Position numbers and translations under genes: made by a program. Of a stretch of 64,000 bases of DNA, positions 34,127 through 53,029 are shown piece by piece. The notes under the pieces were generated by a model. That model made no database searches. It was given only the letters and a program-made list of their open reading frames with translations, and was not told where the DNA came from. The stretch covers positions 1 through 64,000 of the forward strand of contig NZ_VZOV01000018.1 in assembly GCF_008801915.1 (NCBI RefSeq). The letters are read 5' to 3'. This stretch comes from Cupriavidus gilardii (GTDB taxonomy: Bacteria > Pseudomonadota > Gammaproteobacteria > Burkholderiales > Burkholderiaceae). Each line of letters opens with the position of its first letter. Within the stretch, counting starts at the first letter, position 1.

Positions 34127-34338
34127 CGGTCCAAACACAACACGGCCTGCGTGGCGCACGCACAACCCGAGGTGTGCAGGACATGACGGTTAGGCGGCTT
34201 GGCGGGCGGGGGACCCGACAAGCCAGCTGCGGTAGCGGTCATGCCGGCACTCGGGAGACAGCGGCGCCCTTTTTTATTGGGACTCGAAAGATTGCTGACG
34301 TGACGACACGCGGCCGTGGCACTACCCAACAACAACCG

Positions 34339-36048
34339 ATGCAAGATTTCTGGCAGGCGGCAGCCGCGCAGCTCGAGCGCGAACTGACGCCTCAACAGTT
34401 CAAGACCTGGATCAAGCCGCTGGCGCCGGTGGCGTTCGACGAGAACGCCCTGTCGCTGCGCATCGCCGCGCCCAACCGCTTCAAGCTCGACTGGGTCAAG
34501 AGCCAGTTCTCGGGGCGCATCACCGCGCTCGCCTGCGAGTACTGGGAGGCGCAGGTGAGCGTCCACTTCGTCCTCGACCCAACCGCGTCGGGGCGTGCGG
34601 CAGCGAACGGCTATCCGGCCGCGGGCAATCCGGGCGGCCCATACGGTGCCGCCCAGGATCCGGCCGCCCCGGGCGCGGCAGGTCCCGCCGCCCATCTGGC
34701 GCCGGCCTACGGCGCCGGCCAGGCGATGGGCCAGCCGCCCGTGCACGGCGGCCAGGCGCCCGGCCCGGGCGCGCTGATGTATGGCGCGCCGGAGCAACCG
34801 GGTGCCGGCGTGGCCGCGCCGGCCGGCTATGGCGCCATCCATGGCGGAATTGGTGCCGGCATGGGCCACCCGCAAGCGGCCCCCTACTCCGGCGGCAGCC
34901 AGGCGATCGGCGCCGATGTGGTCGATGTCGACGTGCCGCAACTGGACCCGGCCGAAGCCGCGGCCCGCTCTTATCGCGTCGCGCAGCAACCGATGCCGGG
35001 CCAGCAACCGGCCGACACGGTCCATGAGCGCTCGCGGCTCAACCCGATCCTGACCTTCGACAATTTCGTCACCGGCAAGGCGAACCAGCTCGCGCGCGCC
35101 GCGGCGATCCAGGTCGCCAACAATCCCGGCAAGTCGTACAACCCGCTGTACCTGTATGGCGGCGTCGGCCTCGGCAAGACCCACCTGATCCACGCGATCG
35201 GCAACTTCATGCTGATGGAGAACCCGCGCGCCCGGATCCGCTATATCCATGCCGAGCAGTACGTGTCCGATGTGGTCAAGGCGTATCAGCGCAAGGCGTT
35301 CGACGAGTTCAAGCGCTACTATCACTCGCTCGATCTGTTGCTGATCGACGACATTCAGTTCTTCTCGGGCAAGAACCGCACGCAGGAGGAATTCTTCTAT
35401 GCGTTCGAGGCGCTGATCGCCAATCGCGCCCAGGTCATCATCACAAGCGATACCTATCCGAAGGAAATCACCGGCATCGACGACCGGCTGATCTCGCGCT
35501 TCGACTCCGGCCTGACCGTCGCCATCGAGCCGCCCGAGCTCGAAATGCGCGTCGCGATCCTGATGAAGAAGGCGGCTGCCGAGAACGTTTCGGTTCCCGA
35601 GGAAGTGGCCTTCTTCGTTGCCAAGCACCTGCGTTCCAACGTTCGCGAGCTGGAAGGCGCGCTGCGCAAGATCCTGGCGTTCTCGAACTTCCACGGCAAG
35701 GACATCACGATCGAGGTCACGCGCGAAGCGCTGAAGGACCTGCTGACCGTACAGAACCGGCAGATTTCGGTAGAGAACATTCAGAAAACCTGCGCCGACT
35801 TCTACAACATCAAGGTCGCCGACATGTATTCCAAAAAGCGGCCTGCCAATATTGCGCGGCCGCGCCAGATCGCAATGTATCTGGCCAAGGAATTGACGCA
35901 GAAGAGCCTGCCCGAGATCGGCGAGCTGTTCGGGGGACGCGACCACACCACCGTGCTGCACGCGGTACGCAAGATCGCCGACGAGCGCAGCAAGGACGCC
36001 CAGCTCAATCACGAACTGCACGTTCTGGAACAGACGCTGAAGGGTTGA
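34339..36048 (+). CDS. dnaA: Chromosomal replication initiator DnaA
   Basis: 569-residue initiator ATPase. Domain I starts [28 protein letters not shown]. Domain II (about 85-225) is an unusually long Gly/Ala/Pro/Gln-rich linker. Domain III carries Walker [10 protein letters not shown], Walker [10 protein letters not shown] and the sensor and arginine-finger region ISRFDSGL. Domain IV ends with the DnaA-box-binding [15 protein letters not shown]. The ATG at 34339 is chosen by homology, since MQDFWQ is the conserved start in relatives; no Shine-Dalgarno is visible, and a GTG at 34300 is the alternative. It lies downstream of oriC and heads dnaA-dnaN-gyrB. Confidence 0.97.
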
Positions 36049-36368
36049 AACCCGGCGTCGCGGATTTTGAGGGACCGGCTCGGCGGGCTGGCATACTGTG
36101 GTCTGCGCGCCGCGCGATGCCGGGGGAGGCGAAAGGCCCGCTGGAAACCCGCAAACCCGCGCGGGACAAGGGTTTCCGGGCAACCGTCACATATTGGGGG
36201 ATCGTGGCTTTTCATGCACAATATGCAGACGAGCCACACATCGTCCGGCTTTGCCGAGCCGCCCGTTTCGAGGTAAAATGCGACATTAACTCCTTGATTC
36301 CTAAGTGATTTTGGAGTTGTCCAGGACACCCGGCGGACGCTGACTATAAACGACGAAGGACATATTCA
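36049..36368. other. dnaA-dnaN intergenic region
   Basis: 320 bases without a gene. It contains the dnaN promoter at 36251-36279. The first ~200 bases hold nothing I recognise. Confidence 0.6.
36251..36279 (+). promoter_or_regulatory. dnaN promoter
   Basis: TTGCCG (36251-36256), 17-base spacer, TAAAAT (36274-36279), 89 bases upstream of the dnaN start. This allows sliding-clamp expression independent of dnaA. Confidence 0.65.
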
Positions 36369-37484
36369 ATGCAATTGGTCAAAACCTCGCGAGACAATCT
36401 GCTGCGTCCGCTGCAAATCGTGAGCGGCATCGTGGAGCGCCGCCACACCCTCCCGATCCTGGCCAACCTGCTGATCCGCAAGTCCGGCGCCAACGTCTCC
36501 TTCCTGTCCACCGATATCGAAATCCAAATCACCACGCACGCCGAATGCGGCGTCGGCAGCGACGACGTGGCCACCACCGTGGCCGCGCGCAAGTTGCTCG
36601 ACATCCTGCGCGCGATGCCGGACGGCGATGTCGCGCTGTCGCTGTCGGACAAGCGGATGACGGTGCAATCGGGCAAGAGCCGCTTCGCGCTGCAGACGCT
36701 GGCCGCCGAAGAATTCCCGACGGTCGCCGAGGCCACCGAATTCAACGCCAGCGTCACGCTGCCGCAGAAGACGTTCAAGCATCTGCTGGCGATGGTGCAC
36801 TTCGCCATGGCCCAGCAGGACATCCGCTACTACCTGAACGGCATGCTGCTGGTGGTCGACGGCAAGAAGCTGATGGCGGTCGCTACCGACGGCCACCGCC
36901 TCGCCTACTGCGCGGTCGAGCTCGAACAGGAAGCCGCGGGCGCCGGCGCACGCCAGGAAGTCATCATCCCGCGCAAGACCATCCTGGAACTGCAACGCCT
37001 GCTCGAGGACAACGACGATCCGGTGCAGGTGCAGCTGGCCGCGAACCAAATCAAGTTCACCTTCGCCAACGTCGAGCTGATCTCGAAGCTGGTCGAAGGC
37101 AAGTTCCCCGATTTCCAGCGCGTGATTCCGAAGGGCTACAAGAACGCCTTCGCGATCGATCGCGTCAAGCTGCAGCAGGCGCTGCAACGTACCGCGATCC
37201 TGACCACCGACAAGTTCAAGGGCGTGCGCTGCATTCTCGATACGCACACCCTGAAAATCAGCTCGACCAACGCCGACCAGGAAGAGGCGCAGGAAGAGCT
37301 CGAACTCGACTATTCGGGCGATGCGCTCGATATCGGCTTCAACGTGACCTATCTGCTCGACGTGCTGGGCAACCTCAAGAGCGAGCAGGTCCAGGTCAGC
37401 CTCGGCGACTCGAATTCGAGCGCGCTGATCACCGTGCCGGAAGACGACAACTTCAAGTACGTCGTCATGCCGATGCGCATCTGA
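36369..37484 (+). CDS. dnaN: DNA polymerase III sliding clamp, beta subunit
   Basis: 371-residue clamp that encircles DNA and tethers Pol III and repair polymerases. It begins MQLVKTSRDNLLRPLQIVSGIVERRHTLPILANLL, has VATDGHRLAYC and PRKTILEL in the middle domain, and ends with the partner-pocket sequence YVVMPMRI. Length matches the family. It lies between dnaA and gyrB in the standard order and has its own promoter. Confidence 0.98.
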   Translation: MQLVKTSRDNLLRPLQIVSGIVERRHTLPILANLLIRKSGANVSFLSTDIEIQITTHAECGVGSDDVATTVAARKLLDILRAMPDGDVALSLSDKRMTVQSGKSRFALQTLAAEEFPTVAEATEFNASVTLPQKTFKHLLAMVHFAMAQQDIRYYLNGMLLVVDGKKLMAVATDGHRLAYCAVELEQEAAGAGARQEVIIPRKTILELQRLLEDNDDPVQVQLAANQIKFTFANVELISKLVEGKFPDFQRVIPKGYKNAFAIDRVKLQQALQRTAILTTDKFKGVRCILDTHTLKISSTNADQEEAQEELELDYSGDALDIGFNVTYLLDVLGNLKSEQVQVSLGDSNSSALITVPEDDNFKYVVMPMRI

Positions 37485-37587
37485 TGTTCCGGTAAAGGAT
37501 CGCAAGATACGCAGAATCCGGAGCATCGAACGGCAGGCTACGGCGCTCGCAACGGGCAAACAGCCGGTGCGACCGACCCGCAGTAGC

Positions 37588-37626
37588 AGGGGCAGGATCA
37601 TGGCGATCCGCCCCTTTGCCGTTTTT
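37588..37626 (+). terminator. Stem-loop between dnaN and gyrB
   Basis: AGGGGC-A-GGATC pairs with GATCC-GCCCCT around ATGGC, followed by TTGCCGTTTTT. The stem is good but the T tract interrupted, suggesting partial termination between dnaN and gyrB. Confidence 0.6.
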
Positions 37627-37702
37627 ATGTAACCGCCATGCGGAGGGCCGATGGCCGCGTCGTGACCCGGCGCGCCGCGCTCCCCGCATTTGCCGTGAGT
37701 AG

Positions 37703-40234
<2,532 letters not shown>

Positions 40235-46821: not shown

Positions 46822-48186
46822 ATGCCAACCCGATCGCCAGGGCTTGCGACCGCAATTCGACGCCATTGGCCTTGCTTTGCCGTCGCGCTGATCGTTGCGT
46901 CGCCAGCCGCATCCCAGGTGCGGGATGAACGCCCGACGTCCCCGGTTGCCGAGCACGAAGTGATGCAAGGCTTCCCGCCCTCTCCAGAGCGGCAGCTCAG
47001 CCGCGGCAGCGGTCTGCGCCCGCCGTACATGCGCTGGGCCTTCCGGCATGCCCGCGAAATGTCGGCGACCGCCGGCATTCGCCACGCCGATCGACCGCTG
47101 GCGCTGGATGGCCAGCCGGACACCGGCTTGGACGGCACCACGTTCACGGTGGGAGACAAGACCGTCTCGCTCGCCGACTATCTGCGCGACACGCATACCG
47201 ACGGCTTCATCGTGCTGCACCAGGGCAGGATCGTCTACGAGCGCTACCTCGCCGGCTTCGGCCCGTATCAACCGCATATCTGGGCCTCGATGACGAAATC
47301 GGTGACCGGTCTGCTGGCGGCCATGCTGATTGAACAGGGCAAGCTCGATCCGCAGGCCCGGCTTGCGCAGTATGTGCCGGAGCTCGCGGGCAATCCCTTC
47401 GGTGAAGCGACGGTGCAGCAGAACCTCGACATGGAGGTGCCGGTCGGCTACCCCGAGGGGCTGCCGCCGGACCTGGGCCTGTTCGGTGCGGTCGGCATCG
47501 TGCCGCGCAAGCCGGATGCGCCCGATACCATCTACGACTTCCTGAAGGTCGTGCATGCCACGGGCCGGCCCGACCACAGCGTGGATGGCGGTGTCTGGTA
47601 CTACCAGAACGGTTCGCCGGAAGCGGTGGCATGGGCGTTGCGCCGGATCACCGGCAAGAGCTGGTCGCAGCTGGTCAGCGAGATGATCTGGTCGCGCTTT
47701 GCCGACGACGATGCCTATGTGCAGGTCGACCGCCTGACCACGGAAATGGCCAGCGGCGGCATGAACTCGACGCTGCGCGACGCCGCCCGCTTTGCCGAGG
47801 CGGTACGCCGCGCGGCGGCGGGCGATGGATCGGCTGGCATTTCGCCGGCGGCAGTCCGGATTGCGCTGAAGCCGGCCACCAATCAGGCGCGCTTCGCCCG
47901 CGGCAATACCACGCCGGGCCGCGACGGGTATGGCTATCGGAACTACTGGTTCCAGCGCAACGACGGCGACGGCAGCGTCGAGGCCAGCGGGCGCTTCGGG
48001 CAGAAGATCTACATCAACCCGGCCAAGGGCCTGACGGTGGTGAAGTTCTCCGCCAGCCCGGATGGCGCGGCGCGCGCGACCAGCGCCGCGGGCCTGCGCA
48101 AGCGCGACGATCCGGCACGCGTGCTCGAGTCATCCGAAGCCATGGTCGCGGCGGCACTGGCGATCCATCGCGCGGTCGGTCGGTAG
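46822..48186 (+). CDS. Exported beta-lactamase-fold serine hydrolase (class C / NylB-like)
   Basis: 454-residue protein with a signal peptide (ending PAASQ). The serine-beta-lactamase fold is shown by S156-M-T-K159 (ASMTKSVTGLLAAMLIEQGKLD), the Tyr motif in VWYYQNGSPEAVAW, and a later FGQKIYINP region in place of KTG. These features match the 6-aminohexanoate-dimer hydrolase (NylB)/esterase group rather than true beta-lactamases. The physiological substrate (ester or amide) is unknown. It is divergent from the homospermidine synthase gene, with a 294-base gap in which I see no clear regulator site. Confidence 0.88.
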   Translation: MPTRSPGLATAIRRHWPCFAVALIVASPAASQVRDERPTSPVAEHEVMQGFPPSPERQLSRGSGLRPPYMRWAFRHAREMSATAGIRHADRPLALDGQPDTGLDGTTFTVGDKTVSLADYLRDTHTDGFIVLHQGRIVYERYLAGFGPYQPHIWASMTKSVTGLLAAMLIEQGKLDPQARLAQYVPELAGNPFGEATVQQNLDMEVPVGYPEGLPPDLGLFGAVGIVPRKPDAPDTIYDFLKVVHATGRPDHSVDGGVWYYQNGSPEAVAWALRRITGKSWSQLVSEMIWSRFADDDAYVQVDRLTTEMASGGMNSTLRDAARFAEAVRRAAAGDGSAGISPAAVRIALKPATNQARFARGNTTPGRDGYGYRNYWFQRNDGDGSVEASGRFGQKIYINPAKGLTVVKFSASPDGAARATSAAGLRKRDDPARVLESSEAMVAAALAIHRAVGR

Positions 48187-48219
48187 ATCGGTGGCGGCCA
48201 CCCTCGCAACGCCGGCGGC

Positions 48220-49110
48220 TTAGCGAACCGGCGCCGGTTCCGCGGCGCCCCTCAGTATTTTTGCGACGGCCGCGAACTCCTCGTTGCCGTATCCCGCCTC
48301 TTCCGCGTCGCGCAGCAGCCGGGCGATCAGTGAGGGTAGTTCGCTCCGCAGCCCGTTCTGCCGCATCGCCTGCTCGATGCGGCCGGTGGCATCGATCGAG
48401 ATCGACAGCGGGCTTTGCGACACGGCGTAATCGCCGTTGTCGATGACATTGCCCTCATGACGCAGGAATGCGCCGAACGAGGGCGACATCGCTTCGACAA
48501 TGCCGCCGTACACGCCGACATCCAGCCCTTCGGCCTGCGCCAGCGCGGCGCCCTGAAAGAAGCCCATCGACGCGCCATAGACGTACGACAGCGTCGCCAG
48601 GTCCATGGTGGCCGCGGCGGCCACGTCCTCGCCGAGATAGACCACATTGCCGCCCAGCACGGCGAGCAGTTCGCGCGCCAGCGCATGGTCCTCGCCGCTG
48701 CCCGACACCAGCACGGTGGTGTCCGGCTGTCCCATTTGCTCGGGGGCGACCTGAAGCGCGCCGTCGAGATAGCCGGCGCCGATCCGGGCGGCCAACGCGG
48801 CCATGTCGCGTGCGTCCTGCGGGCTGCCGGTGGTCAATTGCAGCAGCAGCTTGCCTTTGAGCGCAGACTTCACCGCGACGTCCGACAGGATGTCATGGGT
48901 CGCGCGATAGTCGTGCACGCAGATGACGACGGCCTCGGCGCCGGCCATCGCCGCCGCGGCGGTGGCGGCAACGATGGCGCCACGGCTCGCCAGTGGTTCG
49001 GCTTTCGATCGCGTGCGGTTCCACACGCGCACCTGCATGCCTGCCTCGATGAACAGCCGGGCCAGCCTCGCCCCCATTTGTCCGAGACCGATTACCGCTA
49101 CCGTTTTCAT
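48220..49110 (-). CDS. Imine-reductase-like NADP-dependent oxidoreductase
   Basis: 296-residue member of the beta-hydroxyacid dehydrogenase superfamily. The Rossmann motif is VAVIGLGQMGARLARLF and the NRTRSKAEPL turn favours NADPH. At the position of the catalytic Lys of hydroxyacid dehydrogenases it has Asp (D170 in AAATMDLATLSYVYG), the hallmark of imine reductases; the following GASMGFFQGAALAQAEGLD and the VAPEQMGQPDTTVLVSG segment also match that group. The natural substrate is unknown. GGGAG precedes the ATG at 49110; a longer start at 49131 is less likely. Divergent from the hxlR-type gene across a GTAC-repeat region. Confidence 0.8.
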   Translation of the reverse strand: MKTVAVIGLGQMGARLARLFIEAGMQVRVWNRTRSKAEPLASRGAIVAATAAAAMAGAEAVVICVHDYRATHDILSDVAVKSALKGKLLLQLTTGSPQDARDMAALAARIGAGYLDGALQVAPEQMGQPDTTVLVSGSGEDHALARELLAVLGGNVVYLGEDVAAAATMDLATLSYVYGASMGFFQGAALAQAEGLDVGVYGGIVEAMSPSFGAFLRHEGNVIDNGDYAVSQSPLSISIDATGRIEQAMRQNGLRSELPSLIARLLRDAEEAGYGNEEFAAVAKILRGAAEPAPVR

Positions 49111-49151
49111 GTTTGCTCCCGCAGATGACAAGGTGCGGCCAGTATGGGAAT

Positions 49152-49193
49152 GTACGGTTTATATGGTCAAGTACGCACTAAAATGACAGGTAC
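49152..49193. promoter_or_regulatory. Three GTAC half-sites at 19-bp spacing: HxlR operator candidate
   Basis: GTAC occurs at 49152, 49171 and 49190, exactly 19 bases apart (about two helical turns), in the gap between the imine-reductase-like and hxlR-type genes. On the minus strand a -35 TTGACC sits between the first two copies with a CATACT -10 at 18 bases, so binding would cover the promoter of the reductase gene. Confidence 0.6.
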
Positions 49194-49244
49194 TATCCTT
49201 CTGGTAAGTAACGGCGATTCGCCGCGGCAAGGAACATCGAGTCC

Positions 49245-49589
49245 ATGAAACGCAGCCAACCCTATAACTGCGGCATCGGGCCCGCCTTCGAAGTGATCGG
49301 CGGCAAGTGGAAGGCGCTGATCCTGTATGAGCTGCATGCCAAACCGTTGCGGACCGGCGAACTTCGCCGGCTGCTCGATGGCATCACCGAGAAGATGCTG
49401 ATCCAGCAATTACGCGAGATGGAGGCAGATGGCATCGTGCGCCGCGAGGTGTTTCACGAGGTGCCGCCGCGTGTGGAATACTCGCTGACGCCGGCCGGTC
49501 GGGAATTGAATCGGGCCCTGGGGCCGGTGGCCGAGTGGGGGCAGAAATACGCGGCGGCCAGAGCAAAAAACAGCGGGAAATCAACGTGA
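49245..49589 (+). CDS. HxlR-family transcriptional regulator
   Basis: 114-residue winged-helix regulator: CGIGPAFEVIGGKWKALILYELHAKPLRTGELRRLLDGITEKML in two parts, then QLREMEADGIVRREVFHEVPPRVEYSLTPAGREL. The conserved Cys near position 9 (YNCGI) is the redox/electrophile sensor in several HxlR proteins such as HypR and YodB, though not all use it. AAGGAA precedes the ATG. It is divergent from the imine-reductase-like gene, and its stop overlaps the start of the acetyltransferase gene (GTGA), so it probably controls both. Confidence 0.93.
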   Translation: MKRSQPYNCGIGPAFEVIGGKWKALILYELHAKPLRTGELRRLLDGITEKMLIQQLREMEADGIVRREVFHEVPPRVEYSLTPAGRELNRALGPVAEWGQKYAAARAKNSGKST

Positions 49590-50035
49590 CCATCAGGACG
49601 CCATCCCGATCGGAATTCGGGGCCATGACCGATGTGTGGGAAGCTTCAGTGCGGGCGACCCATCATTTCCTCACCGACGCCGATATCGATGAATTGCGGC
49701 CACTCGTTCTCAACCAATATCTTGCATTGGTCGACTCAAGGGTATGCAGCGGCGACAACGGCGAAATACAGGGCTTTGTCGGCGTTGCCGACGGAAAGAT
49801 CGAGATGCTGTTCGTCGCGCCCCAGTGGCAAGGGCGCGGCATCGGCAAGGCGCTGCTGCAATACGCCGTGACGAGAATGGGAGCCACGCTGGTGGACGTC
49901 AACGAGCAGAATCCAGCCGCGACCGGTTTCTATCAGCGAATGGGTTTCAGCGTCTTCGACCGGTCGCCGCTCGATGGACAGGGCCGGCCGTTCCCGCTAC
50001 TCCATATGCGGCTGGCAACGCCAGCGCAACGGTAG
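49586..50035 (+). CDS. GNAT N-acetyltransferase, YjaB-like
   Basis: 149-residue acetyltransferase matching E. coli YjaB in layout: IRTPSRSEFGAMTDVWEASVRATHHFL, the acetyl-CoA loop FVAPQWQGRGIGKALLQYA, then VDVNEQNPAATGFYQRMGF and the ending RSPLDGQGRPFPLLHMRL. YjaB is a GNAT with no settled physiological substrate. The GTG at 49586 overlaps the hxlR stop and has GGGAAA upstream; the ATG at 49625 would truncate the first strand. It lies between the regulator and an aminoglycoside acetyltransferase gene 46 bases downstream. Confidence 0.9.
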   Translation: MTIRTPSRSEFGAMTDVWEASVRATHHFLTDADIDELRPLVLNQYLALVDSRVCSGDNGEIQGFVGVADGKIEMLFVAPQWQGRGIGKALLQYAVTRMGATLVDVNEQNPAATGFYQRMGFSVFDRSPLDGQGRPFPLLHMRLATPAQR

Positions 50036-50081
50036 CGACCCGCTCGCCGAAGCCGAAACGCTCTGACCGAAAGAGGACGCG

Positions 50082-50870
50082 ATGGCCGGACAACGCGAAT
50101 GGACCCGGGCCGAGATGGCCCAGCAATTGCGCACGCTTGGTATCGCGCCGGGCGCGGCGCTGCTGGTCCATTGTTCGTTTCGTCATGTCCGGCCGGTCGA
50201 AGGCGGACCGCCAGGCCTGATCGAAGCACTGCGCGCCGCGATCGGCTCCACTGGCACGCTGGTGATGCCTTCCTGGACCGAGGACGACGATGTCCCGTTC
50301 GATCCGGCGACGACACCGGCCTCGCGGGACCTCGGCATCGTCGCCGACACCTTCTGGCGCCAACCGGGTGTCATCCGCAGCCAGCATCCGTTTGCCTTCG
50401 CAGCGGCGGGACCGCAGGCGCGCCGAATCACCGCGGATGCCTTGCCGTTGCCGCCCCACATCGGAGCCAGTCCGGCCGGCCGTGTGCACGAGCTCGATGG
50501 ACAGGTGCTGCTGCTCGGCGTGGGCCACGACGCCAACACCACGATTCATCTGGCCGAACTGATGGCCGGTGTGCCTTACGGCGTGCCGCATCACTGCACG
50601 GTGCTGCGGGACGGCAAGCCGGTCCGGATCGACTATCTCGAGAACGATCACTGCTGCGAGCGCTTCGAGCTGGTGGACGGATGGCTCAAGGAAAAGGGCC
50701 TTCAGCGCGAAGGCCCCGTCGGCAATGCCAGCGCCCGCCTGATGCGGGCCCGGGACATCGTCGATGTCGTGCTGCCGCAATTGGCTCGCGACCCGCTGGT
50801 CTTCCTGCATCCGCCCGAGACGGGCTGCGAGGAATGCGAGGCCGCGCGGCGGTCGATCAGGACAGCGTAG
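50082..50870 (+). CDS. Aminoglycoside N3-acetyltransferase, AAC(3)-IV-like
   Basis: 262-residue acetyltransferase of the antibiotic-NAT fold. It closely follows the remembered AAC(3)-IVa sequence along its whole length: APGAALLVHCSFRHVRPVE, GTLVMPSW, VPFDPATTPASRDLGIVADTFWR, HPFAFAAAGPQA, LPLPPH, RVHELDGQVLLLGVGHDANTT, VPYGVPHHCTVL, DYLENDHCCERF, DPLVFLHPPETGCEECEAAR. AAC(3)-IV acetylates the 3-amino group of apramycin, gentamicin and tobramycin. Family length (about 258) agrees. No integron, IS or plasmid signature flanks it, and GC content matches the neighbours, so it looks resident. It shares direction with hxlR and yjaB-like genes and could be regulated with them. Activity on clinical drugs is inferred. 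Confidence 0.9.
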   Translation: MAGQREWTRAEMAQQLRTLGIAPGAALLVHCSFRHVRPVEGGPPGLIEALRAAIGSTGTLVMPSWTEDDDVPFDPATTPASRDLGIVADTFWRQPGVIRSQHPFAFAAAGPQARRITADALPLPPHIGASPAGRVHELDGQVLLLGVGHDANTTIHLAELMAGVPYGVPHHCTVLRDGKPVRIDYLENDHCCERFELVDGWLKEKGLQREGPVGNASARLMRARDIVDVVLPQLARDPLVFLHPPETGCEECEAARRSIRTA

Positions 50871-50883
50871 CGCGCCTGCGCGT

Positions 50884-51303
50884 TCAGCCTCCGATGCCGA
50901 GCAGTTCCACCTCGAAATTCAGCGTCGCATTCGGCGGAATCGTTCCCGGCACACCGCGCGAGCCATAGGCGGTGCTGCCCGGGCACACCAGCCTGGCCTT
51001 GCCGCCGACCTGCATCTTCTGCACGCCCTCGGTCCAGCACGGGATCACGCGATTGAGCGGAAACGAGATCGGCTGCCCACGCTTGTACGAGCTGTCGAAC
51101 TCGGTGCCGTCGGTCAGCGTGCCGCGGTAGTGCACCTTGACGGTATCGGTGGCTTTCGGCGACGCACCGTTGCCCTTGGTCAGGTGCTGGATCGAGACAC
51201 CCGAGGGCAGGGTCTGGGCCGGTTCGGCGGCATGGGCGGAAAGGGCCAGCGCGCCGATGGAAACCAGCGAAGCAAGGGAAGCGAGCAGCGGGAGTCGGGT
51301 CAT
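50884..51303 (-). CDS. Exported FKBP-type peptidyl-prolyl isomerase
   Basis: 139-residue protein with a Sec signal peptide (ending AHAAEP) and one FKBP domain: TDTVKVHYRGTLTDGTEFDSSYKRGQP, FPLNRVIPCWTEGVQKMQVGGKARLVCPG, AYGSRGVPGTIPPNATLNFEVELLGI. All main active-site aromatics of FKBPs are present. It would catalyse Xaa-Pro isomerisation in the periplasm. The start could be 51303 or 51312; neither has a strong Shine-Dalgarno. It converges on the AAC(3)-like gene with 13 bases between stops. Confidence 0.93.
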   Translation of the reverse strand: MTRLPLLASLASLVSIGALALSAHAAEPAQTLPSGVSIQHLTKGNGASPKATDTVKVHYRGTLTDGTEFDSSYKRGQPISFPLNRVIPCWTEGVQKMQVGGKARLVCPGSTAYGSRGVPGTIPPNATLNFEVELLGIGG

Positions 51304-51383
51304 TGCGGTCATCCGTCGAGTCAAGGAAAGGCACAAGGATAAACCGATTGAATACCGGGACGGTCCGCCGTGCCATGCCGTGC

Positions 51384-51419
51384 CCCGCTGCACGTCCCGC
51401 TGCAAGTCCCGCTGCACGC
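51384..51419. repeat. 12-bp tandem repeat, three copies
   Basis: CCCGCTGCACGT, CCCGCTGCAAGT and CCCGCTGCACGC follow each other without gaps in the gap between the FKBP and ligase genes, on the upstream side of the FKBP gene. Possible copy-number variation near its promoter. Confidence 0.8.
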
Positions 51420-51519
51420 CCCTACAGCAAGCAGCCACAGCGAGCATTGACCCAGGCACCGGCAGACCGCCCGACTTCGCCCGCTCCCCGTTCTCACCGT
51501 TTCCCCTGTCACCGCCGGA

Positions 51520-53029
51520 TCAAGCCGTCCGCAACCGCTGGCGCAACTGGTACTTCATCACCTTGCCGGTGGGTGTGCGCGGCATCGCCTCGACCACGCG
51601 CACCTGGCGCGGCACCTTGTACTTCGCCAGCCGCTCGGCGCAGAAGGCCTGGATGTCCTCGACGTCGACGCTGGCATCGGCCTTTGCCACGACCACGGCC
51701 GCCACGCTCTCGCCCCACTCGGGATGCGGCATGCCGACCACGGCCACTTCCGAGATCGCCGGATGGCCGGCGAGCACATCCTCCACCTCCTTGGAGTAAA
51801 CGTTCTCACCGCCGGTGACGATCATGTCCTTGACGCGATCCACGATGAACAGATAGCCGTCCTCGTCGATCCGCACCAGATCCCCGGTGCGATACCAGCC
51901 GTCGTGAAACGCCGCGGCAGTCGCGGCGGGATCGCGGTAGTAGCCCTGCATCATCGACTGGCAGCGCATCCAGATTTCGCCGACCTCGCCGGGGCCGGCT
52001 TCGTGCCGATCGTCGCGCATGACCTTGATGGTGCAGCCGCTGACCGCATGGCGTCCGATCGAACCGGCCTTGACGACCTGCTCCTCGGGCAGCAATGCGG
52101 TTCCGGTGGGACCGGTCTCGGTCATGCCGAAGACCTGATAGAAGCGCTCGGAGCGGTAGCGTTCGGCCAGCATGCGCGCGGTGGCCGCATCGATCGGGCC
52201 GCCGCCGTACAGCCAGGCGCGTACGCTGGACAGATCGTAGCTGGCGAAGTCCGGCGCCATCTTCAGCGCCATCAGGTAGGCGATCGGCGCACCGAAGAAC
52301 AGCGTGCAGCGTTCCTGCTGCACGGTCTCGAGAAACCGCACGGGGTGATATTCCGGCAGCAGCACCACGGTCGCGCCGACAAAGGCGCTGCCGACCAGCA
52401 GATTGTTCAGCGGGAAGCTGTGCCAGATCGGCATCGCCAGCAGCACGCGATCCGAGGGTCCGAGGCCATAGACCAGGCTCGATCCGGTGCCCGCGAGAAT
52501 CACGTTCGCGTGCGAATGCATGCAGCCCTTCGGCTTGCCGGTGGTGCCCGAGGTGTACAGCAGCTCGGCGAGATCGTCATCGTTGACGTCGACGGACCGA
52601 TAGGCGAGCTGCTCACCGTCCGGGGCGATCAACGGCAGTCCCGCTTCGTTGCCCGCCGCGGACAGCGCAAAGGCCGGCGGCGCGCCGTCCAGCTGGCGAT
52701 GCAGATCGGCATCGACCAGCCACAGCCGGCTCTCGCTGTGCTCGAGGATATAGGCGGTCTCGGGCGCGGCAAGCTTGTGATTGACCGGTACGGCGACCGC
52801 GCCGATATCGAGGATCGCGTAGTAGGCGATCACCCATGCGGCCGAATTGCGTTCCCTGCAGCGCAACCTTGTCGCCCTTGCCGATGCCCTGCGCCTGCAG
52901 CCACGCGGCGGTGTGTTTGACGCGCCGTCGCAGCTCGTCGTAGCGGATGCGCTGCGCGCCATCGACGATGGCGATATCCGAGCTGCGCTGCCGGGCGACG
53001 CTGTCCAGCGCCTCATTGATCGTCCACAT
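51520..53029 (-). pseudogene. AMP-forming acyl-CoA ligase with a single-base frameshift
   Basis: The gene reads in two frames. From the ATG at 53029 (GGAGGAGACACC upstream) it starts MWTINEALDSVARQRSSDIAI and runs to KVALQ. The rest, from RNSAAWVIAYYAILDIGAVAVPVNHKL to the stop at 51520, is in the next frame with P-loop LLYTSGTTGKPKGCMHS, FGMTETGPTG, YRTGDLVRIDEDGYLF and the catalytic Lys in TPTGKVMKYQL. The switch falls at a GGG run (52854-52856 on the plus strand as CCC); removing one G restores KVALQERNSAAW. Everything else is intact, so it is either a very recent inactivation or a sequence error. It would activate an acid for the adjacent AidB-like dehydrogenase. Confidence 0.85.

Follow-up and report, generated by a model that had tools for sequence, protein, structure and literature searches.

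An AAC(3)-IV aminoglycoside acetyltransferase gene resident near the origin of the main chromosome of gilardii-clade Cupriavidus, and its relation to the mobile aac(3)-IVa

We analyzed a 64,000-nucleotide stretch of Cupriavidus gilardii DNA, hereafter called the window, which carries an aac(3)-IV gene within a co-directional gene set headed by an HxlR-type regulator (Table 1). The open reading frame (ORF) spans exactly 50082-50870 (+) with 262 codons plus stop, as proposed in a sequence-only reading of the same DNA, and the three AAC(3)-IVa blocks quoted in that reading are all present.

Table 1 Features of the window at and around the aac(3)-IV gene.
Feature	Position	Strand	Basis
dnaA	34174-36048	+	Pfam
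dnaN	36369-37484	+	Pfam
gyrB	37709-40234	+	Pfam
Divergent NAD(P)-binding reductase with reductive-aminase-like C-terminal domain	48220-49131	-	Pfam NAD_binding_2 and RedAm-like_C
hxlR-type regulator, first of the co-directional set	49245-49589	+	Pfam HxlR, 111 bits
GNAT acetyltransferase gene between hxlR and aac	49586-50035	+	Pfam Acetyltransf_7
aac(3)-IV gene (AAC(3)-IVb-like), Antibiotic_NAT acetyltransferase, 262 aa	50082-50870	+	NCBIfam, PDB match, active-site residues
FKBP-type peptidyl-prolyl isomerase, convergent neighbor of aac in four species	50884-51459	-	Pfam FKBP_C

The local regulator postulated in that reading is indeed encoded upstream of aac and in the same direction, and its gene shares 97-99% identity with the hxlR genes of C. 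gilardii USM5 and C. cauae. In both of these genomes, the aac start codon lies inside hxlR, with a 17-base overlap with the hxlR 3' end. The GNAT gene found at this junction in the window is absent there in USM5 and C. cauae; it starts at a GTG, with a 4-base overlap with the hxlR stop, and its own stop precedes aac by 46 bases. A GNAT gene 88% identical to it occupies the same junction in a further genome of the genus (G031), and a 77% relative occurs in the non-carrier G001, where no hxlR, reductase or aac was seen within 3.4 kb. The GC content of the window GNAT gene (0.61) resembles that of hxlR (0.62), both lying below that of aac (0.68). Probably aac and the hxlR gene upstream of it are expressed together, in the window along with the GNAT gene. 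We infer co-transcription and HxlR control of aac, with the divergent reductase as a possible co-target of the regulator; a promoter scan of 49000-51500 yielded no sigma-70-like site in the + direction. Also near aac, positions 46822-48186 encode a protein with a Pfam Beta-lactamase fold, which may be an esterase-like relative and whose best named NCBIfam matches fall far below cut-off.

Family assignment was based on profile and structure searches. The window protein scored 486.6 bits (E 1.4e-146) against NCBIfam AAC_3_IV (NF033081), an equivalog family with a curated cut-off of 420 bits, while the runner-up, the general AAC(3) family, reached 131.8 bits, under its own cut-off of 270. The Pfam Antibiotic_NAT score was 197 bits. 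AAC(3)-IVa was the top solved relative (PDB 6mn3; 431.5 bits, E 1.2e-128, residues 4-259), compared with 124 bits for the top chain other than IVa, and tblastn gave ~73% identity to AAC(3)-IVa from end to end. In the window's own genome, aac was the sole match. Plasmid records matching the window gene numbered 3303, with 658 in the 60-80% identity band; the 12 rows of this band among the matches listed were all aac(3)-IVa at 73%. Six of eight relatives scanned met the NF033081 cut-off (Mesorhizobium 468.1, USM5 478.0, C. cauae 469.2, J11 435.7, Ensifer 509.4 and a Chloroflexi metagenome-assembled genome 450.7 bits), with AU9028 just under it at 409.1 and locus L052 at 321.0. In a protein tree, the 36 AAC(3)-IV-side rows separated from four distant Cupriavidus homologues with support of 100/100; the window protein was compared with classes II, III and VI by scores only. 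Nesting within another antibiotic-NAT clade, the contrary outcome considered in the sequence-only reading, found no sign in these data, as the NCBIfam and PDB scores ruled out any other AAC(3) class. Judged by its family match, which lies far beyond chance, the window gene is a real AAC(3)-IV.

We then compared the active-site region with that of AAC(3)-IVa, for which the catalytic motif, drug contacts and zinc contacts are named in PMC8956665. Window residue numbers equal AAC(3)-IVa numbers plus 2. Of 18 positions, 17 carry the same residue, including all those of IVa named in that source (T151, H154, E157, W63, D67, E185, D187, C190, C247, E249 and C250). The sole difference, S29 of IVa to C31 of the window protein, lies beside a conserved His. 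Across the 36 aligned rows, H28, H154, E157, E185, D187, H188, C189, H241, C247 and C250 were invariant, among them H28, H188, C189 and H241, which were positions of our own choosing and not taken from PMC8956665; W63 (31/36), D67 (32/36), T151 (34/36), C190 (35/36) and E249 (27/36) were partly kept. The Antibiotic_NAT catalytic motif TxPhiHPhiAE given in PMC8956665 appears in the window protein as TTIHLAE at 153-159, with T153, H156 and E159. Group 1 Antibiotic_NAT features are likewise present, both in the site (W65, D69, E187 and D189, corresponding to Trp63, Asp67, Glu185 and Asp187 of IVa) and in the C-terminal extension (C249, E251 and C252, corresponding to the zinc cysteines C247 and C250 and to Glu249 of IVa).

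By analogy with solved AAC(3)-IVa, from which all mechanistic steps are drawn, a dimer would bind acetyl-CoA and the aminoglycoside in a cleft. Glu159 would raise the basicity of His156, which would take a proton from the 3-amine of 2-deoxystreptamine, and Thr153 would stabilize the intermediate; once the acetyl group was transferred, the drug would lose its hold on the ribosome. Trp65, Asp69, Glu187, Asp189 and Glu251 would form a wide site and Cys249/Cys252 part of a zinc site. What was observed directly, by comparison, is the family and domain, the set of conserved residues, the place on the chromosome, the order of the genes and their distribution across the clade. Because the wide-site residues and zinc cysteines are present, the predicted reactions of the window allele are 3-N-acetylation of gentamicin, tobramycin and probably apramycin, and an apramycin-capable enzyme is a reasonable prediction.

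The order dnaA-dnaN-gyrB at 34174-40234 identifies the window as the origin side of the main chromosome, with gyrB ending 9.8 kb before aac. This gene order is common to the window, USM5, C. cauae and Cupriavidus sp. AU9028, and in all four aac adjoins the FKBP gene. The distance from aac to gyrB is ~7.3 kb in USM5, 8.2 kb in C. cauae and 8.4 kb in AU9028, with dnaN and dnaA beyond; four of the five Cupriavidus genomes with a full-length gene thus have aac 7-10 kb from gyrB, next to dnaA-dnaN. In the fifth, C. gilardii J11 (L022 8001-8753), aac occupies a different site, outside the FKBP/gyrB locus: no match to any window neighbor tested occurred within 8 kb of aac, the first 38 kb of its 76.6-kb contig contained no gyrB, and the J11 genome yielded no FKBP match at E 1e-30, a threshold at which the gene was detected in 55 of 60 genus genomes. 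In AU9028 (L068 1501-1974), the FKBP frame beside aac contains one TGA within the match.

Signs of mobility were sought in parallel. A Pfam scan of 38 distinct ORFs at 34-64 kb, which covered part of the ORFs in that interval and included several antisense frames among its queries, returned no family of transposases, integrases or resolvases; the one exception, a 26-bit IstB_IS21 hit to DnaA, was taken as the shared AAA+ ATPase domain. No plasmid record covered 80% of window positions 47000-53000, the best reaching 19%. The GC content of aac (0.68) and its GC3 (0.80) are in line with its neighbors (GC3 0.72-0.88 for seven correctly framed ones). These results bear out the sequence-only reading in its description of a gene with host-like composition and no flanking insertion sequence or integron. 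In this clade, aac(3)-IV thus resides on the main chromosome, on its oriC side, as that reading had held in more general terms.

Within Cupriavidus, the window genome falls in the C. gilardii/C. cauae group. Protein identity to the window enzyme was 84% for C. gilardii USM5, 82% for C. cauae, 71% for C. gilardii J11 and 66% for AU9028. Among 60 genomes drawn from the genus, 11 gave any aac match: five full-length close ones (the window's included), one fragment in G031 (79 residues at a contig edge, 81% identity) and five distant ones at 42-45%. A draw at family level identified 5 of 398 genomes passing E 1e-60, all five in Cupriavidus. Carrier relationships were studied with an rpoB tree of 29 genomes, derived from 30 hand-picked from the 60 (six carriers and 24 others) after G031 was dropped as a fragment only. 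The five full-length carriers formed one clade (0.999), in which the window paired with USM5 (0.906). The AAC tree instead paired USM5 with C. cauae (100/92), conflicting with rpoB for the window allele. In this tree, the J11 and AU9028 proteins were not firmly joined to the core Cupriavidus proteins; a single clade of all five Cupriavidus proteins was not rejected (p-AU 0.342) but not firmly recovered either.

Allele turnover was also visible at the DNA level. Window identity to USM5 and C. cauae was 87.5-94% for the hxlR, FKBP, acyl-CoA ligase, aidB-like and tetR genes. For the reductase, it was 78-80% versus 91% between USM5 and C. cauae, and for aac 83-85% versus 89%, an excess divergence that is modest for aac taken alone. 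Since the rpoB and AAC trees disagree on the window allele, the window lineage has likely exchanged part of the locus for a divergent allele, which leaves residence at the locus unaffected. Close matches to the reductase were found in 4 of the 60 genus genomes, as were those to the aidB-like gene of the same stretch, both being limited to aac carriers; AU9028 lacks the reductase and has its aidB-like gene on a different contig. Because these two genes are confined to carriers, the whole stretch may have entered the ancestor of the clade as a group. Such a joint arrival would be old rather than recent or strain-specific, as several species have the stretch.

To place the mobile gene, we used an AAC tree of 40 rows, four of them distant Cupriavidus homologues serving as outgroup (42-43% identity over ~155 residues). 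It included 34 of 46 collection loci, leaving out L016-L019 (IVa copies), L044 (redundant) and L051, L053, L054 and L056-L059 (partial). AAC(3)-IVa paired with a protein of Mesorhizobium sp. RMAD-H1 (100/96), and this pair joined proteins of Sinorhizobium medicae, Ensifer USDA 6670 and S. meliloti (99/97). Identity to IVa was 85% for Mesorhizobium RMAD-H1, 77% for Ensifer USDA 6670, 75% for S. meliloti 4H41 and 72.4% for S. medicae, with core Cupriavidus at 73.1-73.5%. Forcing IVa together with the three core Cupriavidus proteins cost 37 log units and was rejected at a p-AU of 0.006, a value that is somewhat optimistic because the rows for the test were chosen after a first tree, although the hypothesis itself stems from the sequence-only reading. 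The plasmid aac(3)-IVa (GC 0.61, GC3 0.64) is close in composition to the Mesorhizobium gene (0.60, 0.62), compared with 0.68 and 0.80 for the window gene.

Carriers near RMAD-H1 are sporadic (3 of 394 genomes drawn around its family). At the RMAD-H1 locus (L050 7992-9420), a resolvase-like ORF with a partial domain lies beside this nearest IVa relative found. The DNA identity between the RMAD-H1 and plasmid aac genes is 80% and confined to the gene, too distant for RMAD-H1 to be the direct donor, and rhizobia may have been recipients too. Comparison of the plasmid segment with L050, L021, L023, L030, L014, L015, L020, L032 and the window revealed no similarity beyond the gene and its immediate edges. 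As DNA similarity stops at the gene edges in the compared loci, no donor flank was found, nor was the direct donor of aac(3)-IVa found among them. The partner gene on plasmids, aph(4)-Ia, accompanies aac in 5 of 53 loci: one is the plasmid L012, and the other four, L016-L019 among 46 collection loci, have an aac product 100% identical to IVa (search at E 1e-8 and >38% identity, flanks of up to 8 kb per side). In Pigmentiphaga sp. NML080357 (L057 8001-8270), only the C-terminal third matches, with 90 residues at 74% to AAC(3)-IVa; it is possibly a broken or diverged copy.

These data permit several readings of where the mobile gene came from and how the window gene reached its site. That gilardii-clade Cupriavidus is the source pool of mobile aac(3)-IVa, which was also one option in Ruiz et al. 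2019, would agree with a chromosomal gene whose product is 73% identical and has no element nearby. It would also agree with a larger ten-row group uniting Cupriavidus with the IVa/rhizobial proteins (81/85 rooted, 92/92 unrooted) and with S. medicae being no closer to IVa than core Cupriavidus is. We nevertheless consider this source very improbable: the three other rhizobial proteins are closer to IVa, the pairing with Mesorhizobium is strongly supported, the Cupriavidus grouping is rejected and the GC and GC3 values of IVa are not Cupriavidus-like. The suggestion in the sequence-only reading that the window lineage lies close to the source is therefore not supported, appearing disfavored by the tree, by composition and by identity for three of four rhizobial proteins. 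We give about even chances to the reading that a rhizobium-like alphaproteobacterium (Hyphomicrobiales), and not Cupriavidus, supplied the mobile aac(3)-IVa, with gilardii-clade Cupriavidus representing an older, oriC-linked sister lineage under HxlR control. We found no rhizobial origin of aac(3)-IVa in print, which is weak evidence of absence because most subscription journals lay outside the search.

For the window gene itself, a recent horizontal arrival in this one strain might be suspected because 54 of the 60 sampled genus genomes are without a close copy, two neighbors (the reductase and the aidB-like gene) are clade-limited as well, and the GNAT gene and divergent reductase allele beside aac indicate local turnover. 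Against this stand the same oriC-side locus in three other species, a total of six carriers (one of them the contig-edge fragment), host-like composition and the lack of mobile-element families among the scanned ORFs, the DnaA cross-match apart. Such an arrival is most unlikely, and at the level of the locus the synteny common to other species rules out a recent single-strain island, the alternative of an island absent from sister strains that the sequence-only reading had allowed for. A different question is whether the native role is acetylation of some amino sugar or amine under HxlR control, with aminoglycoside activity as a side effect. The linkage of aac with hxlR and with the reductive-aminase-like gene that diverges from it would fit, as would the inactivity of the family members FrbF, YokD and BA2930 on aminoglycosides reported in PMC8956665. 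However, the drug-contact residues Trp65, Asp69, Glu187, Asp189 and Glu251 and the zinc cysteines are kept, and the related AAC(3)-IVb alters gentamicin and tobramycin susceptibility (PMC6796972), making a side effect the unlikely option. Overall, we are confident, if short of certain, that the window enzyme is an AAC(3)-IV aminoglycoside 3-N-acetyltransferase of the AAC(3)-IVb/AacC10 type, that its gene is the clade's main-chromosome, oriC-side resident and that another known gene is closer to mobile aac(3)-IVa; identity of only 82-84% to the nearest full-length relatives counts against certainty on the function of this allele.

Residence in C. gilardii and the idea of a source there were already published in 2019. 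In the work of Ruiz et al. (PMC6796972), C. gilardii W2-2 carries AAC(3)-IVb (GenBank MN366378) on its chromosome; the enzyme shares 73% identity with AAC(3)-IVa and is conserved at 83% or more across W2-2, CR3 and JZ4. The cloned W2-2 gene shrinks gentamicin and tobramycin zones in Escherichia coli (Table 5 of PMC6796972) with little effect on kanamycin or amikacin, apramycin being absent from that table. The authors noted that mobile elements were lacking near AAC(3)-IVb and proposed C. gilardii, or else some other environmental bacterium, as a possible source of enterobacterial aac(3)-IVa. For a second C. gilardii isolate, an aac(3)-IVa-like gene was reported in 2021 (PMC8550137). At both ends of the gene, the cores of the W2-2 primers are identical to the C. 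cauae locus but not to the window, and W2-2 is therefore probably of the C. cauae type. In our reading of the gene, the forward primer begins 42 bases downstream of its start, and the published clone may thus lack the first residues. The window protein is 84% identical to that of USM5 and 82% to that of C. cauae, values to be set beside the minimum of 83% stated among W2-2, CR3 and JZ4. The added value of our analysis is a correction, in that a rhizobial-type donor looks likelier than C. gilardii for the mobile gene, and this reading shows where to seek the true source of aac(3)-IVa. The analysis also confirms that AAC(3)-IV enzymes belong to the normal gene complement of an environmental genus that includes opportunists, and their presence would account in part for the gentamicin resistance of the genus.

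Among known systems, AAC(3)-IVb/AacC10 of W2-2 is like the window gene in belonging to the same genus clade, in being chromosomal with no mobile element reported near it and in its 73% identity to AAC(3)-IVa. The two differ in that the window protein shares 82% identity with its C. cauae counterpart, the allele to which the W2-2 primer cores correspond exactly, and in that a GNAT gene separates aac from hxlR in the window, whereas C. cauae has no such gene between them. AAC(3)-IVa (aacC4) of enterobacterial plasmids (PDB 6mn3, 6mn4 and 6mn5) belongs to the same NCBIfam equivalog family as the window protein, 73% identical end to end, and has all the catalytic, drug-contact and zinc residues named in PMC8956665 in common with it. 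In contrast to the window gene, aac(3)-IVa is mobile, located near IS26/IS6-family transposase genes in two plasmids examined and near aph(4)-Ia in one, has a lower GC content and has a rhizobial nearest known relative. The Group 1 meta-AACs from soil metagenome libraries (meta-AAC0016, 0018, 0022 and 0033; PMC8956665), which we liken to the window enzyme by description only, are environmental relatives of AAC(3)-IVa with the C-terminal extension and zinc residues and are described as active on a wide range of aminoglycosides including apramycin.
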